Assembly (NCBI GenBank): GCA_902523895.1
Contig: CABZAZ010000003.1
Span: 1-64,000 of the forward strand
From: an uncultured Pelagibacteraceae bacterium
Lineage (GTDB): Bacteria; Pseudomonadota; Alphaproteobacteria; Pelagibacterales; Pelagibacteraceae
Reading direction: 5' to 3'
DNA length: 64,000 nt
Part shown: piece by piece, positions 3,299 through 21,762 of the stretch
How the letters are laid out: each line of letters opens with the position of its first letter
How positions within the stretch are numbered: position 1 is the stretch's first letter
Position numbers and translations under genes: made by a program
Notes under the pieces: model-generated
What the model was told of the DNA's origin: nothing
Database searches by the model: none
What the model saw: only the letters and a program-made list of their open reading frames with translations

Positions 3299-4488
3299 TG
3301 AAAATTCGCCCAGTCATTTTATGTGGTGGAGCTGGAACAAGACTTTGGCCCAACGCTAAAAAACACCAAGCAAAACAATTTATAGATTTTGGTAATTGGA
3401 CTTTGTTGGGTAAAACTTTAGAGAGAGTTAAAGCATCTATATATGATGCTCCAATTATTAGTACTAATGCAAAATATTTAAAACAAGTAAAACAACACCT
3501 AAAGAAACACAAAATAAGAAAATTCAAGATAGTTTTAGAACCAGCTAAAAGAAATACCGCACCAGCTATATTAAGTACGGCATTAATAAAGGATATACCT
3601 AACGAACAACCTTTAATGTTCTTGGCCGCTGATCATTTGATAGAGAAGGTTACATTATTTAATAAAGCTATCAAGAAAAACCAAAAGAAACTTACTCATA
3701 ATAATATCATTATCTTTGGAATTAAACCTACAATGCCTTCAAGTGAGTTTGGCTATTTTTTAACAAAAAATACTAAAGTAACTAGATTTATAGAAAAACC
3801 AAAAGAGGCTAAAGCTAAACAAATAATTAGTAAAAAAGGTTATTGGAATTCTGGAATGTTTTATCTGAGAAAAGACTCGATCATTAATAATTTTAAGAAA
3901 TACCAACCAAATATTTACCGAAACTGCAATAACGCTTTAATAAAAGCAAAATATAAAAGTAACGTGTACTATTTAAACAAACAAGCATTCACTAAAGCAA
4001 CAGCTAAGTCTTTTGACTATGCAATTCTAGAAAAAACTAAAGATATAAATGCTATCAAGTTGGATATTCCTTGGTCTGATTTAGGATCTTGGAAAGAAAT
4101 CTGTAAGATGTACGGAAGAAATAAGAAACATTATTATAAAAAGAAAAATGTGTTCCATAGACCTTGGGGTAGTTATGTTAATTTATTTAATGGTAAAGAA
4201 TTCTTGATAAAAGAACTATATGTAAAACCTAAAGGTATATTAAGTCTTCAGAAACATCATCATAGAGCTGAACACTGGGTAGTAACCCAAGGTAAACCTA
4301 AAATTACGTTAAATAAAAAATATTTTACCATGAAACCTGATGAAACTATTTTTATACCATTAGGTGCAATCCATAGAATAGAAAACCCATATAAAAAACC
4401 AGTAAAAATAATTGAGGCACAAGTAGGCTCAATTTTAAAAGAAACTGATATAGTCAGATACCAAGATGTTTATGGAAGAGTAAAATAA
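3295..4488 (+). CDS. Mannose-1-phosphate guanylyltransferase / mannose-6-phosphate isomerase-type protein
   Basis: N-terminal [11 protein letters not shown] nucleotidyltransferase motif; C-terminal cupin ([18 protein letters not shown]). Confidence 0.88.
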
Positions 4489-5373
4489 TTATTTTACAAG
4501 AAAATTCACTTTTTTATTTGATAGATTTAAATGAATTTTTTTATGTGAGCCAAAATTATCTCCATCAATTTGAACAGGCATCAAATCATTTCCGTCAATT
4601 GTAATGTTTTGTGCATAAGTAGTAATAACATTTTTATTTTTACTTAAATCACCATTAAGAATTATTAAAAATATTGAATATAATAAACTAATCCTAGTCA
4701 AATCTTTAAATATATAGGTGACTAATTTATCTTCAAAAATATTTGTTTTATTTATTTTATGATGTCCAGCGTAATATTTGGTATTTGAAGATAATATCCA
4801 GTCTGCTTGATAAAATTGATCATCAAAAGTGACATTTAATTTTTTATTATTCATAAACAAGAAATATTGAAAACCTTTGATACCAAATATAATTTTACCT
4901 AGAAACTTTTTAATTTTTGAATTAATTGAATGAACAATTTTTGCATCCCATCCTATACCAGCCATTAAAAAGAAATAATTCTCGTTAATTTTTACAAGAT
5001 TAGAGGATTTATAATTATTAGAAACCAATATATTGACTATATCATCAACTTTTTTATTCATTGATAATTCAGCTTGAAGCAAATTAGCAGTACCAGCAGG
5101 AATATAACCTATGGCAAAATCGTCTTTAAAATTAAAATTATTTTTAATTAATTCATTAATTGCAAAAGAAACTGAACCATCACCGCCAGCTACTATTAGT
5201 CGATCATAATTTTTTTGATTAAAATTTTTGAAAATTTTCTTAGCTTGATTTATTGTTTTAGTCTCAAAGTAGTCTACAGAAATATTCTCTTTTAACTTAG
5301 ATAAAATCCTATTTATGAATTTAGATTTTCTTCCAGAGGAAGAATTCAAATTATAAATCAAACAACATAACAT
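4489..5373 (-). CDS. Diacylglycerol kinase-family lipid kinase (DagK/YegS-like)
   Basis: GGDGSVSFAINEL and GTANLLQAEL motifs of the DAGK catalytic domain; C-terminal PVQIDGDNFG. Confidence 0.87.
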   Translation of the reverse strand: MLCCLIYNLNSSSGRKSKFINRILSKLKENISVDYFETKTINQAKKIFKNFNQKNYDRLIVAGGDGSVSFAINELIKNNFNFKDDFAIGYIPAGTANLLQAELSMNKKVDDIVNILVSNNYKSSNLVKINENYFFLMAGIGWDAKIVHSINSKIKKFLGKIIFGIKGFQYFLFMNNKKLNVTFDDQFYQADWILSSNTKYYAGHHKINKTNIFEDKLVTYIFKDLTRISLLYSIFLIILNGDLSKNKNVITTYAQNITIDGNDLMPVQIDGDNFGSHKKIHLNLSNKKVNFLVK

Positions 5374-5392
5374 AATTAATCCTTAAAAAATT

Positions 5393-5421
5393 TTTAACAA
5401 ATTTGTAACATTTAAATGAAA
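5393..5421 (+). promoter_or_regulatory. Putative Pho box (11-bp-phased direct repeats) upstream of plcP-like gene
   Basis: TTTAACA(5393)-AATT-TGTAACA(5404)-TTTA-AATGAAA(5415); 7-bp repeats with 4-bp spacers, same geometry as the pstS promoter. Confidence 0.6.
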
Positions 5422-5471
5422 TAAGAAATACATGATTCGTGTTACAGTTGTATTAAAATATAGGTTTTTAA

Positions 5472-6284
5472 ATGCCTAATTTACTTAAATATAAAAGTAT
5501 ATTTATTTCTGATGTTCATTTAGGTACCAAGGGTTGTCAGGCAAAAAAACTTTTAGAGTTTTTTAAAAACTCAAGATCCGAAAATCTTTATCTTGTAGGG
5601 GACATTATAGATATCTGGGAAATGCAAAAAAGCTTTTTTTGGCCTCAAGAACATAATGATGTAATCCAAAAAATTTTAAGAAAAGCTAGGCATGGTACTA
5701 AAGTTTTCTACATTATGGGTAATCATGACGAAATGTTAAGAAAATTTATTCCAATGCATTTTGGTGACATCCATATGGTTAATAGAGTTATTCATGAAAC
5801 AAATGCAGGAAAAAAATATGTTGTTGTTCATGGTGATGCTTGGGATGGTGTTATGAAACATGCTAAATGGTTATCTAAACTTGGATCAATAGCCTATAAT
5901 TTACTATTAAAATTAAATGTAATAATTAATTTTTTTAGAAGATTGAGAGGAAAAGAATATTGGTCTCTTGCAAAATTTTTAAAGTATAAAGTCAAAAATG
6001 CAGTTAAATATATTGGTGAATATGAAAAAACACTTTCAGATTATGCAAAAAGAAAAAAATTTGATGGAATTATTTGTGGCCACATCCATCATGCTGAGGA
6101 TAGAGATTTTAATGGGGTCAATTATTTAAATTGTGGAGACTGGGTTGAGTCCTGCACTGCATTAGCCGAAAATTATGATGGTAGTTTTGAAATATTATAT
6201 TGGGACAAAATAAGAGAACAATATTTAGACGATAAAGAAAAAATTGAACCATTTAAAACTGAAGAATTAAAAAAAGCTTCATAA
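5472..6284 (+). CDS. plcP: UDP-2,3-diacylglucosamine pyrophosphatase-like metallophosphoesterase, probable PlcP-type phospholipase C
   Basis: ISDVHLG, GDIIDIW, GNHDE, VHGD, CGHIHHAE metallophosphoesterase motifs; adjacent glycosyltransferase and Pho genes suggest PlcP rather than LpxH. Confidence 0.78.
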   Translation: MPNLLKYKSIFISDVHLGTKGCQAKKLLEFFKNSRSENLYLVGDIIDIWEMQKSFFWPQEHNDVIQKILRKARHGTKVFYIMGNHDEMLRKFIPMHFGDIHMVNRVIHETNAGKKYVVVHGDAWDGVMKHAKWLSKLGSIAYNLLLKLNVIINFFRRLRGKEYWSLAKFLKYKVKNAVKYIGEYEKTLSDYAKRKKFDGIICGHIHHAEDRDFNGVNYLNCGDWVESCTALAENYDGSFEILYWDKIREQYLDDKEKIEPFKTEELKKAS

Positions 6285-6287
6285 TTA

Positions 6288-7295
6288 ATGAAAATTTTAA
6301 TTGCTACAGATGCATATTTTCCCCAAGTAAATGGTGTTGTAAGAACCTTACATGAAACAGGCAATATATTAAAAGAACAAGGTCATAGAATAGAATATAT
6401 TACACCTGACTTATTTTTTACTTTTCCGATGCCGAAATATAATGAAATTAGGTTGTCTATAAATGTATGGCCCAGAGTTGGTAGTTTAATAAAGAAAATC
6501 AATCCAGATGCAATTCATATCGCTACCGAAGGCCCGATAGGCACTATGGCAAGAAGATATTGTTTAAAAAATAATCTAAAGTTTACTACGAGTTTCCATA
6601 CAAGATTTGATAAATATCTAAAACTTTACTTTCCTATTATACCAGCAAAATGGGCTGAAAAATTCTTAGCAAATTTTCATAATAAGGCTGAGAGAATTTT
6701 AGTAACTACAGAGTCTATGAGAAAAGAATTAATCGATATAGGTATAGATGACAATAAAATGATTACTTGGACTAGAGGAGGAAATCATGGAGCTTTTAAG
6801 AACCCTAAAAAAATTGATTTACCTCATAAAAGACCTATTTGGATTTATGTTGGAAGAGTTGCAGTTGAAAAAAATATAAGAGCTTTCTTAGAATGTGATT
6901 TAGAAGGTACAAAGATAATTATAGGAAAAGGACCTGATTTAAAAAAATTGAAAAAAGAATTCCCTAAAGATATTTTTTTAGGAGAAAAAACAAATGGTGA
7001 ATTAGCATCACATTTTGCATCCTCTGATGTTTTTGTTTTCCCAAGTAAAACAGATACATTTGGAATTGTAGTTACAGAAGCTTTAAATTGTGGAACACCT
7101 GTTGCTGCGTATCCTGTTCCAGGTCCTAAAGATATATTTGAAGGATCCAAAATAAATTGTTTAGATGATGATCTTAAAGTATCAGCACATAAAGCTTTGA
7201 AAGTTAATAGAAATGATTGTCTTGAATTTGCAAAAAAATTCACTTGGGAAGAAACAGCAAAAATATTTTTTAACAATATTTCACCAAATCATTAG
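6288..7295 (+). CDS. agt: GT4-family glycosyltransferase, probable DAG glycosyltransferase (Agt-like)
   Basis: PQVNGVVRTLHET, SFHTRFDKY, YVGRVAVEKN, FVFPSKTDTFGIVVTEALNCGTPV; 3 bp downstream of plcP-like gene. Confidence 0.78.
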   Translation: MKILIATDAYFPQVNGVVRTLHETGNILKEQGHRIEYITPDLFFTFPMPKYNEIRLSINVWPRVGSLIKKINPDAIHIATEGPIGTMARRYCLKNNLKFTTSFHTRFDKYLKLYFPIIPAKWAEKFLANFHNKAERILVTTESMRKELIDIGIDDNKMITWTRGGNHGAFKNPKKIDLPHKRPIWIYVGRVAVEKNIRAFLECDLEGTKIIIGKGPDLKKLKKEFPKDIFLGEKTNGELASHFASSDVFVFPSKTDTFGIVVTEALNCGTPVAAYPVPGPKDIFEGSKINCLDDDLKVSAHKALKVNRNDCLEFAKKFTWEETAKIFFNNISPNH

Positions 7296-7360
7296 TTAAT
7301 TTTTCCTTAATTTATTTGCATTAAAAAGTGTAATGATGCAAAATTAAGCCATCTAAATTT

Positions 7361-8503
7361 ATGGAATATTTCGTCATTCTACTTATAGTTGTGATAGTTT
7401 ATCTTCTCTATTTACTTAATCAAAAAAAAAATAAATCAATAAATACCGCTACAATAGTTAATAAAAGAGAAGAAAAAACAAAAAGAGTAATTATTGATGA
7501 GCTTGAAGATCAATTTTTTGCATTAAATAAATTTAACATAATTAAATATGCCAATCCAAGTGCATTAAAAAGATTTGGAAGTAATTTAATTGATAAAAAC
7601 ATATCTTCTATAATTCGAAAACCAGAATTAATAGAAAATATTGAAAAAGCTATCGTAGAAAATAAAACAAAAAATATCGATGTTGAAATAGACCTCCCAT
7701 CATATCAATTCTATAAAATTTATATTATTCCTGGCCCAACTCATTTGTTTACTGAACCAGACTCTGTTGTGTTATTTTTAAAAGATTTTACTGAAATTAC
7801 AAAAGCACAAAAATTTAAAACTGATTTTGTAGCAAATGTAAGCCATGAATTAAGAACACCTTTAATGGCAATCAAAGGATCACTAGAAACAATTGAGGGC
7901 CCAGCGTCTGATGATGAAAAGGCTAAAAAAAAATTTATGAAAATTTTGTCTGAACAATCAACAAGGATGGAAAGTTTAATTAATGATCTATTAATTCTTA
8001 CACGGATTGAACTTGATGAACATATAAGACCTACTTCAATAGTAAATATTAATGAACTCTTTGAAACTATTATTAGTAATTTTGAAATTGTTTTAAAAAA
8101 GAAAAATATAACTGTTAAAAATCAATTAACAAATACATCAATTGTTATAGGTGATGAAAAAAGATTAAATACAGTTTTTTCTAATCTTTTGGATAATTCA
8201 ATAAAATATTCTCCAGAAAATAAAAATATATATATTTCTAAAAATGAAAATAGTAACAAACTATTAGAAAAGAATATAATGATTAGTATTAAAGATGAAG
8301 GTTATGGCATTCCCCATGAACACATTTCGCGTGTTACAGAAAGATTTTACAGGGTTGACACAGAACAAAGTAAAAAAGTTGGTGGAACTGGTTTAGGATT
8401 AGCTATTGTTAAACACATAATTACCCAACACAGAGGTGATTTTGAGATTCTTTCAGAGGTTGGTAAAGGTACTGAAATTAGAATATATTTGCCTTCGAAA
8501 TAA
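7361..8503 (+). CDS. phoR: Phosphate regulon sensor histidine kinase
   Basis: N-terminal TM, PAS-like region, H-box NVSHELRTPLMAIKGSLETIEG, HATPase GTGLGLAIVKHI; upstream of pst genes. Confidence 0.9.
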   Translation: MEYFVILLIVVIVYLLYLLNQKKNKSINTATIVNKREEKTKRVIIDELEDQFFALNKFNIIKYANPSALKRFGSNLIDKNISSIIRKPELIENIEKAIVENKTKNIDVEIDLPSYQFYKIYIIPGPTHLFTEPDSVVLFLKDFTEITKAQKFKTDFVANVSHELRTPLMAIKGSLETIEGPASDDEKAKKKFMKILSEQSTRMESLINDLLILTRIELDEHIRPTSIVNINELFETIISNFEIVLKKKNITVKNQLTNTSIVIGDEKRLNTVFSNLLDNSIKYSPENKNIYISKNENSNKLLEKNIMISIKDEGYGIPHEHISRVTERFYRVDTEQSKKVGGTGLGLAIVKHIITQHRGDFEILSEVGKGTEIRIYLPSK

Positions 8504-8525
8504 AGATTTAAAAAAAACTTCATTT

Positions 8526-8565
8526 TATAACCCTTATTTGAGAAAACTTTAACATTTCTTTGATT
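8526..8565 (+). promoter_or_regulatory. Weak putative Pho box upstream of orphan secreted protein
   Basis: 11-bp-phased TATAACC(8526)/TTTGAGA(8537)/TTTAACA(8548)/TTTGATT(8559), then TGTATAGAT -10-like sequence; degenerate. Confidence 0.3.
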
Positions 8566-8598
8566 GATTCGTGTATAGATTTTATTTAAGTTTTTATA

Positions 8599-9207
8599 AT
8601 GATTAAAATACTCAAAAATATTTTAATATTTTTTTATTTAATCTTGTTTTTCACAACTAGTGTATATTCAAAAGACCTGTCTACTCTTTTACGTACTCAG
8701 CAATTAACAGTTTTTGACATAGGTATTTTTAGATTAGAAGAGGACTTAAAGAGTTCTTATCCTGCTGTAAAGAAACATAAAGATGTGCCTTATGAAGATA
8801 TATATATGGATGTTGTCAGTTCCTATTGGAGAAATACAGTAGATTTAATTGTTTCAATCCCAGTAAATGAAAATTTAAAAAAAGAGAATTATATGTCAGA
8901 CTCATTTAGATGTAGAAATATATTTAATTCAGTAAGAGATCATTTGTTAAGAAACGAAAATTTAAGTAATTATAGGTTTACTATGGCAACTAGTTATTTA
9001 ACATCTGTTTTTTCTACTCCAAGCACATGGCCAAGATGGCGATACGATCAAAGCGTCTTAGAAGAATTAGTTAATTTAGTAAAACTTGAAGTTATTTTGA
9101 GACCTACAACTGAGCTTGCTTTTAAAGATAAAGTTAACCCCGTTTCTTGTAAAGGTGGTTTAGAAACAGAAAATGATGAGATTATAATCTCAATGAAATA
9201 CAACTAA
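8599..9207 (+). CDS. Hypothetical secreted protein located between phoR and pstS
   Basis: 202-aa ORF with N-terminal signal peptide (MIKILKNILIFFYLILFFTTSVYS); conserved-looking Trp/Arg segment (STWPRWRYDQS); no family recognised. Confidence 0.82.
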   Translation: MIKILKNILIFFYLILFFTTSVYSKDLSTLLRTQQLTVFDIGIFRLEEDLKSSYPAVKKHKDVPYEDIYMDVVSSYWRNTVDLIVSIPVNENLKKENYMSDSFRCRNIFNSVRDHLLRNENLSNYRFTMATSYLTSVFSTPSTWPRWRYDQSVLEELVNLVKLEVILRPTTELAFKDKVNPVSCKGGLETENDEIIISMKYN

Positions 9208-9218
9208 AAAGTTATCTT

Positions 9219-9247
9219 TTTAACAAAAGTGTAACAATTCTGTAATA
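9219..9247 (+). promoter_or_regulatory. Putative Pho box of pstS
   Basis: Three 11-bp-phased repeats TTTAACA-AAAG-TGTAACA-ATTC-TGTAATA, then TTATAC -10-like sequence at 9265-9270. Confidence 0.75.
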
Positions 9248-9316
9248 TTAAAGATTCAATTAATTTATACGAGTCTGTCATCTTTATATTAATTAATAAC
9301 GAAAGGATTAAAGATA

Positions 9317-10348
9317 ATGAAAAAACTAACTATAGTGATCGCTTCTTTAGTTGCTTTATCAATAGCAACTGTTGCTCAAGCAAGAGATCAAATTAAGATA
9401 GTTGGTTCTTCTACGGTATTCCCTTACGCAACAGTTGTTGCTGAAAGATTTGGTGGTTCAGGATTTAAAACTCCTGTAATCGAGTCTACTGGTACTGGTG
9501 GTGGAGCTAAACTATTCTGTGCTGGTGTAGGTGAACAACATCCAGATATTACAAATGCATCAAGAGCTATGAAAGATAAAGAAAAAGCTCTATGTAAGAA
9601 AAATGGTGTTAATGATATCGTTGAGATCGTAATTGGTAACGATGGTATTACATTAGCTTACAGCAAAGATGCAAAACCAGTAAACTTTACTAAAGAACAA
9701 TTATATTTAGCACTTGCTGCTCATACAGTTGTTGATGGTAAATTAGTTCCAAATATTTATAAAACTTGGGACCAAATTGACCCTAGCTTACCAAAACAAA
9801 AAATTTCAGTGATGATCCCACCAGGAACATCAGGAACTAGAGATGCTTGGAATTCTTTAGTAATGAAAAAAGGTATGACTAAAGAAGCTAAAGCTCTTTA
9901 TAAAGCTGGTTTTGAAGCTGGAAATAAAAAATACAAAAAACCTCAAAAACTTTACAGAGAAGATGGTGCTGCTATTGAAGTTGGAGAAAACGATAGTTTA
10001 ATCATCCAAAAGTTAACTCAAGATAAAGAAATGTTTGGTTTCTTTGGTTTCAGTTATTTCTTAGCTGCAAAAGATAAATTGCAAGCAGCAAGTATTGATG
10101 GTGGACAACCGTCATTAAAGTCTATTCAAGACTACAGTTATGCTGTTGCTAGACCTTTATTCTTCTACGTGAAAAAAGCACACGTTGGAGTAATTCCAGG
10201 CTTACATGAGTTTGTGAAAGAATTCACAACTAAGAAAGCTATTGGAAAAGGTGGTTACTTAGCAGACATTGGCTTAGTGCCATTAGACTCTAAGTTGTAT
10301 AAAACAACTAGAACTAATGCTACGAAGCTAGTTGCTATGGGTAATTAA
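9317..10348 (+). CDS. pstS: Phosphate ABC transporter substrate-binding protein
   Basis: Signal peptide; IVGSSTVFPYA, STGTGGG, GTSGTRDAW motifs; followed by pstCAB. Confidence 0.96.
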   Translation: MKKLTIVIASLVALSIATVAQARDQIKIVGSSTVFPYATVVAERFGGSGFKTPVIESTGTGGGAKLFCAGVGEQHPDITNASRAMKDKEKALCKKNGVNDIVEIVIGNDGITLAYSKDAKPVNFTKEQLYLALAAHTVVDGKLVPNIYKTWDQIDPSLPKQKISVMIPPGTSGTRDAWNSLVMKKGMTKEAKALYKAGFEAGNKKYKKPQKLYREDGAAIEVGENDSLIIQKLTQDKEMFGFFGFSYFLAAKDKLQAASIDGGQPSLKSIQDYSYAVARPLFFYVKKAHVGVIPGLHEFVKEFTTKKAIGKGGYLADIGLVPLDSKLYKTTRTNATKLVAMGN

Positions 10349-10372
10349 TTATTCCTAAGTTAACAAATGATT

Positions 10373-10404
10373 AAAAAGGGGGTCTTTTTAGACCCCTTTT
10401 TTTT
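10373..10404 (+). terminator. Rho-independent-type hairpin between pstS and pstC
   Basis: AAAAAGGGGGTCTTTTTAGACCCCTTTTTTTT: GGGGTC/GACCCC stem plus T tract. Confidence 0.85.
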
Positions 10405-10439
10405 AAAAAAAGAGTAAAGTCCTCACTTAAGGAGATTCT

Positions 10440-11825
10440 GTGAACTTAATACTATTTACATTTATTGTTCTTCTAGGTTTCACAAGCTATTATTTTGGAC
10501 GCAAAAAAGCATATACAATTCAATCTACAAAAAAAAGATTAACTGCATTACCACAATTTTATGGTTATTATCTTGCAATCTGGTGTGCAATACCAGCCTT
10601 TATAATTTTTTCATTATGGGCAATTTTTGAGCCCACAATTGTAAAACTATTAATCTTAAGTGATTATTCAAATCAAGGTTATCTTGATGATGAATTAAAT
10701 TTATTATACGAAAAATCAAAAGCATTGTCTCGAGGGCAATTCACTGGAGAAATTACACCTTTTATTGAAGCTTCAGCTGAAAAATATTTAAGTCTTCGAT
10801 CAATAGCTCAAAGTTCAAAAGTTGTTATAGTATTATCTGCAATTATTGCCTCTGTTGCTTATGCGTATAAAAGAATTTCATCTAATTCTAGAACAAGAGA
10901 ACCAGTTGAAAAATTTTTGAACGCAGTTTTATTTACAGCTTCTTTAGCTGCAATATTAACTACTGTTGGAATAGTTTTCTCACTTATATTTCAAACTATA
11001 GATTTTTTTAAAGTAATTCCATTATTTGATTTTGTCTTTGGAACTCACTGGTATCCAGCAAAAGCTTTTGTTAGAGATTCTTCTGAGGCTTTAGATCCGA
11101 CGATGTATTCAGATACTTTTGGAGCAGTCCCTATTTTTGCAGGTACTTTTTTTATTGCATTTATTGCTATGTGCGTTGCTATCCCAATTGGATTAATGAG
11201 TGGAATTTATTTAGCTGAATATGCATCAACTAAAGTTAGACAATATGCAAAACCATTAATCGAAATTTTAGCTGGTATACCAACAGTTGTTTATGGTTTT
11301 TTTGCTGCCCTAACTGTTGGACCATTTTTGAAAGAATTAGGAACTTCTATGGGTCTTGAAGTTTCAGCTGAAAGTGCTTTAGCAGCAGGAGGGGTAATGG
11401 GTATTATGATCATACCATTTATTTCAAGTTTAAGTGACGATGTAATTACAAGTGTGCCTCAAAGTTTAAGAGATGGAAGTTACGCTATGGGAGCAACTAA
11501 ATCAGAAACAATCAAGAGAGTTATTTTTCCTGCGGCATTGCCGGGGATAGTTGGATCTATTTTACTTGGTGTTTCAAGAGCTATTGGAGAAACAATGATA
11601 GTTGTTATGGCCTCTGGTTTAGCTGCTAATTTAACTTTAAATCCTTTAGAGTCTACTTCAACGATTACAGCTCAAATTGTAGTTATTCTAATTGGTGACC
11701 AAGCTTTTGGCGACCCAAAAACGCAAGCTGCTTTTGCTTTAGGTATGTCATTATTTTTAGTAACACTTTGTTTAAATATTGTGGCCTTGAGAGTAGTTAA
11801 AAAATATAGAGAAAAATATGAATAA
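10440..11825 (+). CDS. pstC: Phosphate ABC transporter permease PstC (long form)
   Basis: GTG start with AAGGAG RBS; BPD permease motifs (EILAGIPTVVYGFFA, RDGSYAMGATKSETI). Confidence 0.94.
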   Translation: MNLILFTFIVLLGFTSYYFGRKKAYTIQSTKKRLTALPQFYGYYLAIWCAIPAFIIFSLWAIFEPTIVKLLILSDYSNQGYLDDELNLLYEKSKALSRGQFTGEITPFIEASAEKYLSLRSIAQSSKVVIVLSAIIASVAYAYKRISSNSRTREPVEKFLNAVLFTASLAAILTTVGIVFSLIFQTIDFFKVIPLFDFVFGTHWYPAKAFVRDSSEALDPTMYSDTFGAVPIFAGTFFIAFIAMCVAIPIGLMSGIYLAEYASTKVRQYAKPLIEILAGIPTVVYGFFAALTVGPFLKELGTSMGLEVSAESALAAGGVMGIMIIPFISSLSDDVITSVPQSLRDGSYAMGATKSETIKRVIFPAALPGIVGSILLGVSRAIGETMIVVMASGLAANLTLNPLESTSTITAQIVVILIGDQAFGDPKTQAAFALGMSLFLVTLCLNIVALRVVKKYREKYE

Positions 11826-13086
11826 AAATAAAGAACAATTATTAAATAAAAGATATAAAGCTGAACAGCGATTTCGCTTATACGGTCTGAGTGCAATTTT
11901 TATGGCACTTTTATTTTTAACAATCTTTATTTTTAAAATTTTTTCAACTGGCTATTCAGCTTTTCAAAAAACATGGCTTATTGTTCCAGTAACTTTCGAT
12001 GCTGAATTAATGATGTTAGACCAAAATCCTTCTAAAGAAGATTTACAGGACGCTGATTATTACGATATAGCATTAAAATCAATGGCTGATTTAGATCCAA
12101 ACGCTAATGAAGATCAAGAAAATGAATTGAAGAGAATGGTGTCTTATTTTTTTGAAAAAGAAATTAAAAATGAACTTTTAAATGACCCTAATTTAATAGG
12201 AAAAACAAAGGAAGTTTATCTAACTGCTTCAGATGATTTAGACCAAGTCTTTAAAGGAAATTATCCAAGAGATTTACCTGAAGACCAAAGAAGAGTAAGC
12301 GATTATCAATTAAAAATTTTTGATCAACTTGTTGCAAATGGTAAGGTTGAAAGTAAATTTAATATAAGTTTTTTTACAAATGCTGACTCAAGAGAAGCTG
12401 AGCTAGCTGGAATAGCAAGTTCATTTATGGGCTCAATTTTTTCTATACTTGTTTGTTTAATGATAGCTTTTCCTGTTGCGGTTCTAGCTGCAATCTATCT
12501 TGAAGAATTTGCCCCTAAAAATAGATTTACTGATTTTATTGAAGTAAATATAAACAACTTAGCAGCGGTTCCATCTATAGTTTTTGGTCTATTAGGGTTA
12601 GGAGTTTTATTGGCTATATTTCAATTACCAAGGTCTACCCCATTAGTTGGAGGTATCACTTTGTCCTTAATGACCTTACCAACAATAATTATAGCTGCTA
12701 GAGCATCTTTAAAAGCAGTTCCACCAAGTATAAGAGAGGCAGCACTTGCTATGGGAGCAAGTCGAATGCAAACCACAATGCATCATACAGTTCCTCTTTC
12801 TATGCCTGGCACGTTATCAGGAACAATAATTGGTTTAGCTCAAGCTTTAGGAGAAACTGCACCCCTAATTTTAATTGGAATGGTTGCTTTTGTTAACACG
12901 ATACCTGGATCACCCATGGATCCTGCTGCAAGCTTACCAGTTCAAATTTATATTTGGGCTGAAAGTGCTGAAAGGGGATTTGTAGAAAAAGTTTCGGCAT
13001 GTATAATGGTCTTACTTGGCTTTTTAATAATAATGAATTTATTTGCCCAAATAATAAGACATAAGTTTGAGAAAAAATGGAGTTAA
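11818..13086 (+). CDS. pstA: Phosphate ABC transporter permease PstA (long form with large N-terminal periplasmic region)
   Basis: [42 protein letters not shown] permease motifs; overlaps pstC. Confidence 0.94.
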
Positions 13087-13087
13087 A

Positions 13088-13843
13088 ATGATAAAGATTA
13101 AAGCAAAAGATGTTGATGTTTTTTATGGAAAAAAACAAGCACTCTTTAATATAAGTTTAGATATTGAGGAAAATCAAGTAACGGCATTAATTGGTCCCTC
13201 TGGTTGTGGTAAATCAACTTTCCTAAGATGTCTTAATAGAATGAATGATGTAATTGATATCTGTAGTGTTAAAGGAGAAATTTTAATTAATGACTTTAAT
13301 ATTAATGATAAAAGTTGTGATGTAGTAAGATTAAGAGAAAAAATTGGTATGGTTTTTCAAAAACCTAATCCTTTCCCAAAAACTTTATATGAAAATGTAT
13401 CTTACGGTCCAACAATTCATGGTATGGCTCAATCAAAACAAGAAATGGATGAAATTGTTGAAACTAGTTTAAAAAAGGCTGCACTATGGGAAGAGGTAAA
13501 AGATAGATTGCATGAACCTGGAACTGGATTATCTGGAGGACAACAACAAAGACTTTGTATTGCTAGAGCGATTTCTGTAAGACCAGAAGTTATATTAATG
13601 GATGAGCCTTGTTCAGCATTAGATCCTATAGCAACAGCGCAAATTGAAGAATTGATTGATGAGTTAAAAAAAGAGCACACAATAATAATTGTAACTCATT
13701 CTATGGCTCAAGCAGCACGCGTTTCTCAAAATACAGGTTTTTTTCATTTAGGACAATTGATTGAACATGGATCTACTGATAAAATATTTAAGAATCCTGA
13801 TAATAAAAAAACGCAAGATTATATAACAGGGAGGTTTGGATAA
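13088..13843 (+). CDS. pstB: Phosphate ABC transporter ATPase
   Basis: Walker [35 protein letters not shown]; start revised from 13067 to [14 protein letters not shown]. Confidence 0.96.
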
Positions 13844-14550
13844 TGTCTGAAGCACCACATACAGTTAAATCTTACGAGGAAGAACTAAAAAATCTTAATG
13901 CTAATATCGTTAAGATGGGAAGTGCATGTGAGGATGCTTTAGGTAAAGCAATTCAAGCCATTACAACAAGAAATAGCGATATTGCAGAAAATGTAATTCA
14001 AGAAGATGAAAAAATAGATAAATATGAGACTTTAATTGAACAGCAAGTTGTGAATTTAATTGCTTTAAGACAACCTATGGCAATTGATTTAAGAGAGACA
14101 GTAACGGCTTTGAAAATGTCTTCAGATTTAGAAAGAATAGGTGATTTAGCAAAAAATATATCCAAGAGAACACTTTTGCTTAACGAAAATCTTCCAAAGA
14201 ACTTGGTAGACTCATTGAATAGAGTATCTACCAATGTTCAAAAACAATTAAAATCAACATTAGATGCTTATCTAGAAAGATCTGCGCCAATGGCAGTAAA
14301 TGTTTGGGAAGGTGATGAGCAAATAGATGATCTAACAAATCTTTGTATGCAAGAAGTTATAAAATATCTTAAAGAAAATGAAAAAAATTTAGAAGATGGA
14401 ACCCATTTATTGTTTGTAACTAAAAACATAGAGCGTATTGGTGATCATACTACAAATGTTGCAGAACAAGTTTATTATTTAGTTAAAGGCGAATATTTAG
14501 AAGGTGATAGACCCAAGGGAACAGAGCCAATTGTAACCGGAGAAAAATGA
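13843..14550 (+). CDS. phoU: Phosphate signalling complex protein PhoU
   Basis: SSDLERIGDLAKNI and TKNIERIGDHTTNVAE PhoU repeats. Confidence 0.95.
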   Translation: MSEAPHTVKSYEEELKNLNANIVKMGSACEDALGKAIQAITTRNSDIAENVIQEDEKIDKYETLIEQQVVNLIALRQPMAIDLRETVTALKMSSDLERIGDLAKNISKRTLLLNENLPKNLVDSLNRVSTNVQKQLKSTLDAYLERSAPMAVNVWEGDEQIDDLTNLCMQEVIKYLKENEKNLEDGTHLLFVTKNIERIGDHTTNVAEQVYYLVKGEYLEGDRPKGTEPIVTGEK

Positions 14551-14553
14551 TTT

Positions 14554-15237
14554 ATGTCAGCTCATGTTTTCATAGCTGAAGATGAAGCATCAATTGTTAG
14601 TTTGTTAAAGTACAATCTTGAAAAAGAAGGTTATAAAGTCAGTCATTCAGAAAATGGAGAAGATGCTCTTAAACAAATAAAATTAAAACAGCCAGATTTA
14701 ATATTAATGGATTGGATGTTACCAGAATTATCTGGTGTTGAAATTTGTAAAAACTTAAAAAAAGATAATAAGTTTAATGATATTCCTGTCATTATGTTAA
14801 CTGCAAAAGGGGAGGAAGAAGACAAATTAAAAGCATTTGATACAGGTGCAGATGATTATGTAACTAAACCTTTTAGTCAAAAAGAATTGAATGCTAGAAT
14901 TAAATCTTTATTGAGAAGATCTAAACCTCAATCATCGTCAGACATTGTAGAATTTACTGATTTAAAAATAGATCGGATTACAAAAAGAGTTTATAGAAAA
15001 GATAAAGAAATTACTTTGGGTCCAACTGAATTTAAACTCTTAGATTTTTTTATCAAAAATCCAAAAAGAGTTTATTCAAGAGAACAACTCTTAAACAATG
15101 TTTGGGGAGAAAATATATATGTTGAGTCTAGAACAGTTGATGTTCATATTAGAAGATTAAGACAAGCAATTAACATACAAAATACAAAACCTTTAATTAG
15201 AACAGTAAGATCAGCTGGTTATTCTTTAGAATCTTGA
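14554..15237 (+). CDS. phoB: Phosphate regulon response regulator
   Basis: Receiver (DLILMDWMLPELSG, DDYVTKPF) plus OmpR/PhoB winged helix (SREQLLNNVWG...VDVHIRRLR). Confidence 0.93.
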   Translation: MSAHVFIAEDEASIVSLLKYNLEKEGYKVSHSENGEDALKQIKLKQPDLILMDWMLPELSGVEICKNLKKDNKFNDIPVIMLTAKGEEEDKLKAFDTGADDYVTKPFSQKELNARIKSLLRRSKPQSSSDIVEFTDLKIDRITKRVYRKDKEITLGPTEFKLLDFFIKNPKRVYSREQLLNNVWGENIYVESRTVDVHIRRLRQAINIQNTKPLIRTVRSAGYSLES

Positions 15238-19922: not shown

Positions 19923-20414
19923 TTATAGTTTTTTAAGAACTGTTATTAAATAAAAAAACATTGCTATATGAGAACTATTATTGAATTTTTGATTTAATAT
20001 TAATTTAAATATCTCTTTTTGATTAAAAAGATGAATTCTAATACCTTGTTCTGGTTTCGAAATTTTAATTAAGTCTTCTGTGTAATAACCAGTAATTTTA
20101 GTAGTTAGTCTTCCAGGTTCAGTATAAAAAGTTATTATTTTACTCAATTTTGATCTTGATCTATATCCTGTTTCTTCTCTTAATTCCTTATATGCTGATT
20201 GCAGAGTTGTTTCCTTTTTTTCCACTATGCCAGAAGGAAACTCGTAATTAATTTTATTAATTGGAACTCTTTTTTGGGAAACTACTACATATTTGTCTTT
20301 AATCTTAGGTATTACTAATGAAAGATTAGAAGTTTTAAGATAATGATAAAACTCTTTTTTTTTAAATTTTTTGTTAATTAAACTTATTCGATTAGTAAGT
20401 TTTATATTTTTCAA
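19923..20414 (-). CDS. NUDIX hydrolase
   Basis: Nudix-like box (GIVEKKETTLQSAYKELREETGY); 4-nt overlap with aquaporin gene. Confidence 0.88.
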   Translation of the reverse strand: MKNIKLTNRISLINKKFKKKEFYHYLKTSNLSLVIPKIKDKYVVVSQKRVPINKINYEFPSGIVEKKETTLQSAYKELREETGYRSRSKLSKIITFYTEPGRLTTKITGYYTEDLIKISKPEQGIRIHLFNQKEIFKLILNQKFNNSSHIAMFFYLITVLKKL

Positions 20415-21070
20415 TTTTTTTCTAAAAATAACTTTTTAACAATAAGTACAGCAATTAACATTCCAATAAGCTCAGCTAAAATATAATAAGGAGTATTTAA
20501 ATAACTAATACCAGTAAAAGATTCTGTAAATGTTCTAGCAATAGCAACCGCAGGATTTGCAAAAGAAGTTGAAGAAGTAAACCAATAACCTGCAGTAATG
20601 TAAAGCCCAACACTAGCAGCAACAGCAATTTTACCTGACTTCATAGCCCCAAAAATTATCACTATAAGTCCTAATGTTGCTATCACTTCAGATGTTAGTA
20701 TATAAATCCCATCTCTTGATTTAGTAGATAATTCATAAATTTCATGTTCAAAAAAGAAATTGGCTAAACCAACACCAATCAAGCAACCAACCAATTGAGC
20801 AATGATATAGTAGGGTAATAGTTTCCTTTTTAATTTGCCTGTTATTGCCATTGCGATACTTACAAATGGATTAAAGTGAGCTCCTGATACATCAGCAAAT
20901 ACTGTAATAAGCACAAATAAACCTGCTCCTGTTGCTATAGTATTAGCTATTAACATCACAGCAACATCATTAGTTAAGTTTTCAGCCATTAAACCTGAAC
21001 CAACAATAATCATTACTAAAAAACAACTGCCTAATAATTCAGCAAGAAAATAGCGGCTTTTATTTTTCAT
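20411..21070 (-). CDS. MIP-family aquaporin/aquaglyceroporin, AqpS-like
   Basis: Two half-motifs HFNPFVS and FANPAVA; adjacent to arsC-like gene. Confidence 0.88.
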   Translation of the reverse strand: MKNKSRYFLAELLGSCFLVMIIVGSGLMAENLTNDVAVMLIANTIATGAGLFVLITVFADVSGAHFNPFVSIAMAITGKLKRKLLPYYIIAQLVGCLIGVGLANFFFEHEIYELSTKSRDGIYILTSEVIATLGLIVIIFGAMKSGKIAVAASVGLYITAGYWFTSSTSFANPAVAIARTFTESFTGISYLNTPYYILAELIGMLIAVLIVKKLFLEKN

Positions 21071-21491
21071 AAATCAGTTCCTTTATTCTTTTATAAATAT
21101 TATTGTAAACTTCTTCTATTATTTCATCTTTTTTATTTAAGTCGTTTGTTTCATCAAGTAATTTGACAGGATCCTCTATATCCCAATGAATTATCTGATC
21201 TTTATTTGGCCAAATAGGACAGACTTCGTTATTGGCATTATTACAAACTGTAATCACATAATCCATTTTAATTTGACCATTAATAAACTCATTAAAATTT
21301 TTAGATCTATAATTTGAAAGATCATAATGTTTTGACAATAAATAATTCTTCACATCCTCATTAATTTTTCCTGTTGGATTACTCCCAGCACTAAAACCTT
21401 TATACTTATCGTCATACTCGTTGTTTATTATACTTTCAGCAATAATACTTCTTGCTGAATTACCTGTGCATACAAACAAAATATTCTTCAT
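21060..21491 (-). CDS. arsC: Arsenate reductase (low-molecular-weight PTPase-type ArsC)
   Basis: CTGNSARSIIAE P-loop; CNNANNEVCPIWP Cys pair and HWDIEDP motif. Confidence 0.87.
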   Translation of the reverse strand: MKNILFVCTGNSARSIIAESIINNEYDDKYKGFSAGSNPTGKINEDVKNYLLSKHYDLSNYRSKNFNEFINGQIKMDYVITVCNNANNEVCPIWPNKDQIIHWDIEDPVKLLDETNDLNKKDEIIEEVYNNIYKRIKELIYEK

Positions 21492-21733: not shown

Positions 21734-21762
21734 TATTACATTAATGTTACAAATTTATTAAG
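21734..21762 (-). promoter_or_regulatory. Putative Pho box of the ars/aqp/nudix operon
   Basis: Minus strand CTTAATA-AATT-TGTAACA-TTAA-TGTAATA, three 11-bp-phased repeats closely matching the pstS box. Confidence 0.5.

Follow-up and report, generated by a model that had tools for sequence, protein, structure and literature searches.

SAR11 bacteria count among the most abundant groups in the ocean. The SAR11 (Pelagibacteraceae) DNA analysed here, a 64-kb stretch referred to below as the window, raises the question of what a metallophosphoesterase and a glycosyltransferase encoded side by side contribute to these cells. In named genomes, its 80 best matches all belong to Pelagibacteraceae/SAR11. 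A sequence-only reading had taken the pair for a Pho-box-driven lipid-renovation system of the PlcP/Agt kind. Its description of the genes proved accurate as to the open reading frames, the 3-bp gap that separates them and both protein families, yet it overlooked that the pair adjoins a phoR-pstSCAB-phoU-phoB cluster. The genes in question are the following:

4489..5373, minus strand: divergent DgkB/YegS-type lipid kinase, 294 aa, with a GGDG motif (DAGK_cat, E 2.7e-22)
5472..6284, plus strand: plcP, PlcP-type metallophosphoesterase (phospholipase C), 270 aa (Metallophos, E 1.3e-12)
6288..7295, plus strand: agt, GT4 diacylglycerol (DAG) glycosyltransferase, 335 aa (Glyco_transf_4 and Glycos_transf_1 domains)
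7361..8503, plus strand: phoR-like sensor kinase 3' of the cassette (TIGR02966 phoR_proteo, scoring 291.9 bits where the cut-off is 334)
9317..15237, plus strand: pstS, pstC, pstA, pstB, phoU and phoB, names read from the translations

An Rfam scan of positions 4400-9400 returned no credible RNA element, the one sub-threshold match being to a snoRNA within agt.

PlcP shares its metallophosphoesterase superfamily with LpxH (22-27% local identity between LpxH and the window protein), and the phosphoesterase might instead be read as LpxH, the lipid A pyrophosphatase, with the glycosyltransferase acting in LPS core synthesis. Homologues are indeed labelled 'UDP-2,3-diacylglucosamine diphosphatase' in public annotation, the window protein gives weak LpxH profile matches, and the genus carries the lipid A genes lpxC and lpxB, whose presence means that LpxH cannot be argued against on the ground that lipid A is missing. 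However, those profile matches fall far short of the curated LpxH cut-offs (49.1 against 134 bits for one, 39.2 against 190 bits for the other), and in the maximum-likelihood tree that the sequence-only reading had called for, the six LpxH sequences fall together in a clade of their own (100/99). The window protein groups with PlcP, together with its SAR11 relatives, a Sinorhizobium meliloti homologue, and homologues from Sphingomonas, Methylobacterium and Pseudomonas, in which an Agt-type gene directly follows plcP. Its motifs GDIID, GNHD and GHIH are those of metallophosphoesterases with GNHD, a signature found in nearly all PlcP rows, whereas proteobacterial LpxH sequences read GNRD; by itself this motif is not decisive, because the LpxH side of the tree includes a Bacteroides protein, labelled LpxH, that also has GNHD. 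Besides, all 13 well-assembled relatives carry LpxI next to LpxB, six of them lacking plcP, so that PlcP is not needed for lipid A. Within the window's own draft genome, LpxI gave no match and lpxB a partial one, consistent with an assembly gap. Cut-offs, tree, motif and the presence of LpxI led us to reject the LpxH identity, against which the Pho box and the Pho-cluster context also speak, and which we consider extremely improbable. As for the S. meliloti phosphoesterase on the PlcP side of the tree (L148 copy; 46% identity over 243 aa), there is no agt among its annotated neighbours and it is maybe not the characterised S. meliloti PlcP.

The second enzyme of the PlcP-Agt pair was identified by its motifs and by the 15 published mutated positions of GTcp, the HTCC7211 Agt (WP_008545403.1; 334 aa, compared with 335 aa in the window; PMC8231724). 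At each of these 15 positions, the window protein has the identical residue under the same numbering; the catalytic His104-Asp256 and the DAG-contacting Thr162, Arg163 and Trp320 are shared. The UDP-sugar motifs GRVAVEKN and FPSKTDTFG match GRVAXEKN and FPSXTDTFG. Judged by these features, the glycosyltransferase is Agt/GTcp.

The pair in 'Candidatus Pelagibacter' sp. HTCC7211 (PB7211_983 / PB7211_960; type 2 of Sebastian et al., as described in PMC4796936) belongs to the same clade and has the same gene order and both enzyme families, though in a different SAR11 genome. Purified HTCC7211 GTcp glycosylates DAG (PMC8231724), agt of this strain leads to MGDG and GADG formation when expressed in E. 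coli, and its plcP complements a Phaeobacter plcP mutant (both as described in PMC4796936). With the phosphoesterase on the PlcP side of the tree, the LpxH cut-offs missed and the Agt residues retained, the lipid-renovation reading is borne out, and the locus is almost certainly the SAR11 phosphate-starvation lipid-renovation cassette known from HTCC7211. Since that system has been published (PMC4796936, PMC8231724), the PlcP-Agt pair is already known. What the present analysis mainly adds to the earlier reading is a second, inverted Pho box and a divergent lipid kinase that shares the intergenic region with plcP; the main text of PMC4796936 makes no mention of a second inverted Pho box at the HTCC7211 pair. 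The sites of interest are these:

5393..5410, plus strand: Pho box 1, TTTAACA-AATT-TGTAACA, oriented to plcP and ending 61 bp before its ATG
5420..5425, plus strand: candidate plcP -10 element, AATAAG, with an invariant ATAA core, 9 bp past box 1 (by inspection and conservation)
5434..5438, no strand assigned: GATTC between the boxes, a GANTC (CcrM-type) methylation site, invariant in near relatives
5440..5457, minus strand: Pho box 2, TTTAATA-CAAC-TGTAACA, oriented to the lipid kinase (rank 3 in the window, 21.2 bits)
9219..9247, plus strand: pstS Pho box of three half-sites, TTTAACA-AAAG-TGTAACA-ATTC-TGTAATA, with the same motif as box 1

Box 1 had been proposed earlier as TTTAACA-N4-TGTAACA, and the match at 5393-5410 has the exact 11-bp phasing claimed for it. 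We scored the window with a Pho-box matrix trained only on box 1 sequences from relatives in which PlcP is <90% identical to the window protein, a restriction to more distant relatives which allowed chance to be judged without circularity. Box 1 came first among ~128,000 window positions at 22.9 bits, followed by the pstS box at 9219-9236 with 21.4 bits, and the top score over 40 shuffled windows was 18.5 bits. With up to two mismatches allowed, the window contains 10 copies of TTTAACA-N4-TGTAACA where 2.8 would be expected, a count of 10 being reached by 0/100 shuffles. The degenerate pattern TKTAAYA-N4-TKTAACA retrieved three sites only from the whole assembly (951 kb, 79% complete), namely box 1, box 2 and the pstS box at 9219-9236. 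Across 32 diverse plcP upstream regions, box 1 was found in 28, 25 of which had trained the matrix. Where SAR11 genomes lack plcP, the strongest Pho box in the neighbourhood of pstS is located between this gene and pstC, not before pstS (L243:2585-2602 and L245:2590-2607; similarly in L244 and L246-L248). Between phoR and pstS, the window further holds a small open reading frame (8599-9207, plus strand) with a hydrophobic N-terminus and without a Pfam or NCBIfam match, preceded by a weaker Pho-like box (8537-8554, plus strand).

The cassette is a trio of kinase, plcP and agt, which had escaped the sequence-only reading. The three genes are present together in 8/14 SAR11 genomes and absent together from the other six, the kinase occurring in 8/8 genomes with plcP-agt and being absent from 6/6 without. 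Two of the trio-less genomes (L243, L247) have manC directly before phoR and thus display the empty site. Over the 32 diverse plcP loci, agt lies 3' of plcP in every case, and 25 of the loci have the kinase in divergent orientation. Besides, a Red Sea metagenome study lists the HTCC7211 kinase, phosphoesterase and glycosyltransferase genes in a single table of over-represented clusters (PMC3686209). Among solved structures, the best match of the kinase is DgkB (2qv7; E 1.6e-19, near full-length), with which it has the GGDG motif in common, yet it misses the NCBIfam subfamily and equivalog cut-offs (TIGR00147, 103.3 vs 118.65; PRK13337, 116 vs 385). From this distant similarity, we infer DAG as its substrate. 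Given that the kinase is closest to DgkB and that membrane DgkA was not found in 13/14 SAR11 genomes, it may be the main DAG kinase of these cells. A four-gene up-regulated cluster was reportedly found by Carini et al. in 2015.

Kinase and plcP are separated by 98 bp, in which the two inverted Pho boxes stand face to face. Hardly any variation affects the two boxes across 46 distinct intergenic sequences from near relatives: the half-sites of box 1 vary at 0/7 and 2/7 positions, and the TGTTACA half-site of box 2 does not vary at all. Such blocks might owe their conservation to shared ancestry and not to selection, as the 46 sequences come from close relatives and the 19 bp adjoining the kinase start also vary little. 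The variable positions nevertheless cluster outside the boxes (10/19 positions in the stretch between them, 11/14 in the stretch before plcP) and are nearly lacking within them, and among wider relatives box 1 is retained down to a PlcP identity of 56%, which leaves ancestry a very unlikely explanation. In the wider relatives, box 2 accompanies 9/9 kinases of at least 73% identity and 0/16 more divergent ones, and is hence a feature of one lineage; as it is missing in 16/25 kinase-bearing relatives, PhoB control of the kinase via box 2 is not family-wide.

We tentatively propose, as a possible though rather doubtful reading, that the 98 bp form a two-way PhoB operator whose inverted boxes induce PlcP-Agt plus the DAG kinase. 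Under such an arrangement each bound box would possibly hinder the opposite promoter and so balance the DAG pool, and the conserved GANTC between the boxes may add a methylation (cell-cycle) input. A competing reading, in which plcP alone is served by both boxes, box 2 being an extra PhoB or repression site inside its promoter or leader and the kinase not being phosphate-regulated, is a substantial possibility, albeit one that falls short of being probable. It is consistent with the position of box 2, at 14-15 bp from the ATG of plcP and overlapping the presumed 5' leader of this gene, and with the absence of this box from most kinase-bearing relatives, but the orientation of box 2 is that of a canonical box pointing to the kinase, it is confined to one kinase lineage, and the kinase has been gained and lost along with plcP-agt. 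On the kinase side, the -10 element (a candidate by inspection) is weak.

A GANTC site was present in all 32 plcP upstream regions, and one match to a RAMA-domain (CcrM-type) methylase was obtained in each of 14/14 genomes. In the window overall, GANTC is depleted (88 sites vs 164 expected). Such a site follows shortly past each Pho box upstream of plcP, of the small open reading frame at 8599 and of pstS (5434, 8566 and 9253, respectively). An apparent GATTC 'dyad' in some relatives was rejected, as it consists of two GANTC sites.

For the cassette as a whole, low phosphate would activate PhoR-PhoB, and PhoB would then bind box 1 to drive plcP-agt, which the box and the 3-bp gap suggest to be one transcript. 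By analogy with the HTCC7211 orthologues, PlcP would strip the phosphorylated head group off membrane phospholipids to yield DAG, to which Agt would add glucose, galactose or glucuronic acid from a UDP-sugar, giving phosphorus-free glycolipids. In the kinase subclade with box 2, PhoB might also induce the DgkB-type kinase, a step much less certain than this core; the kinase could then return surplus DAG to phosphatidate and act as a salvage valve against DAG build-up. Exchanging phospholipids for glycolipids reduces the phosphorus need of SAR11, and the kinase together with box 2 offers a concrete idea of how free DAG might be kept in check during the lipid swap.

Further Pho-linked genes were seen in the window and elsewhere. 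Tandem Pho half-sites at 21734-21762 (minus strand) precede a small open reading frame followed by genes for an arsenate reductase of the LMW-phosphatase type and a MIP channel (20411-21491, minus strand), and in one relative (L128) this same arsenate reductase/MIP pair is divergent from plcP and has its own Pho box of 21.6 bits. The half-sites before arsC fit the 2.3-fold induction of this gene in phosphorus-starved HTCC7211 (PMC6426599).

PlcP relatives are also encoded on at least 109 viral contigs. The Pelagibacter phage Mosig EXVC030M (MT647606.1; L149:3919-4732) carries a PlcP homologue of 49.8% identity, divergent from a gene of the phage whose annotation is phosphate ABC transporter. 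Its start is preceded, at a distance of 58 bp (61 bp in the host), by a SAR11-type Pho box, TTTAACA-AAAA-CTTAACA, which scores 18.1 bits (next best 9.6). A similar box was found upstream of viral PlcP relatives in 2/21 contigs scanned (L169 and L170).
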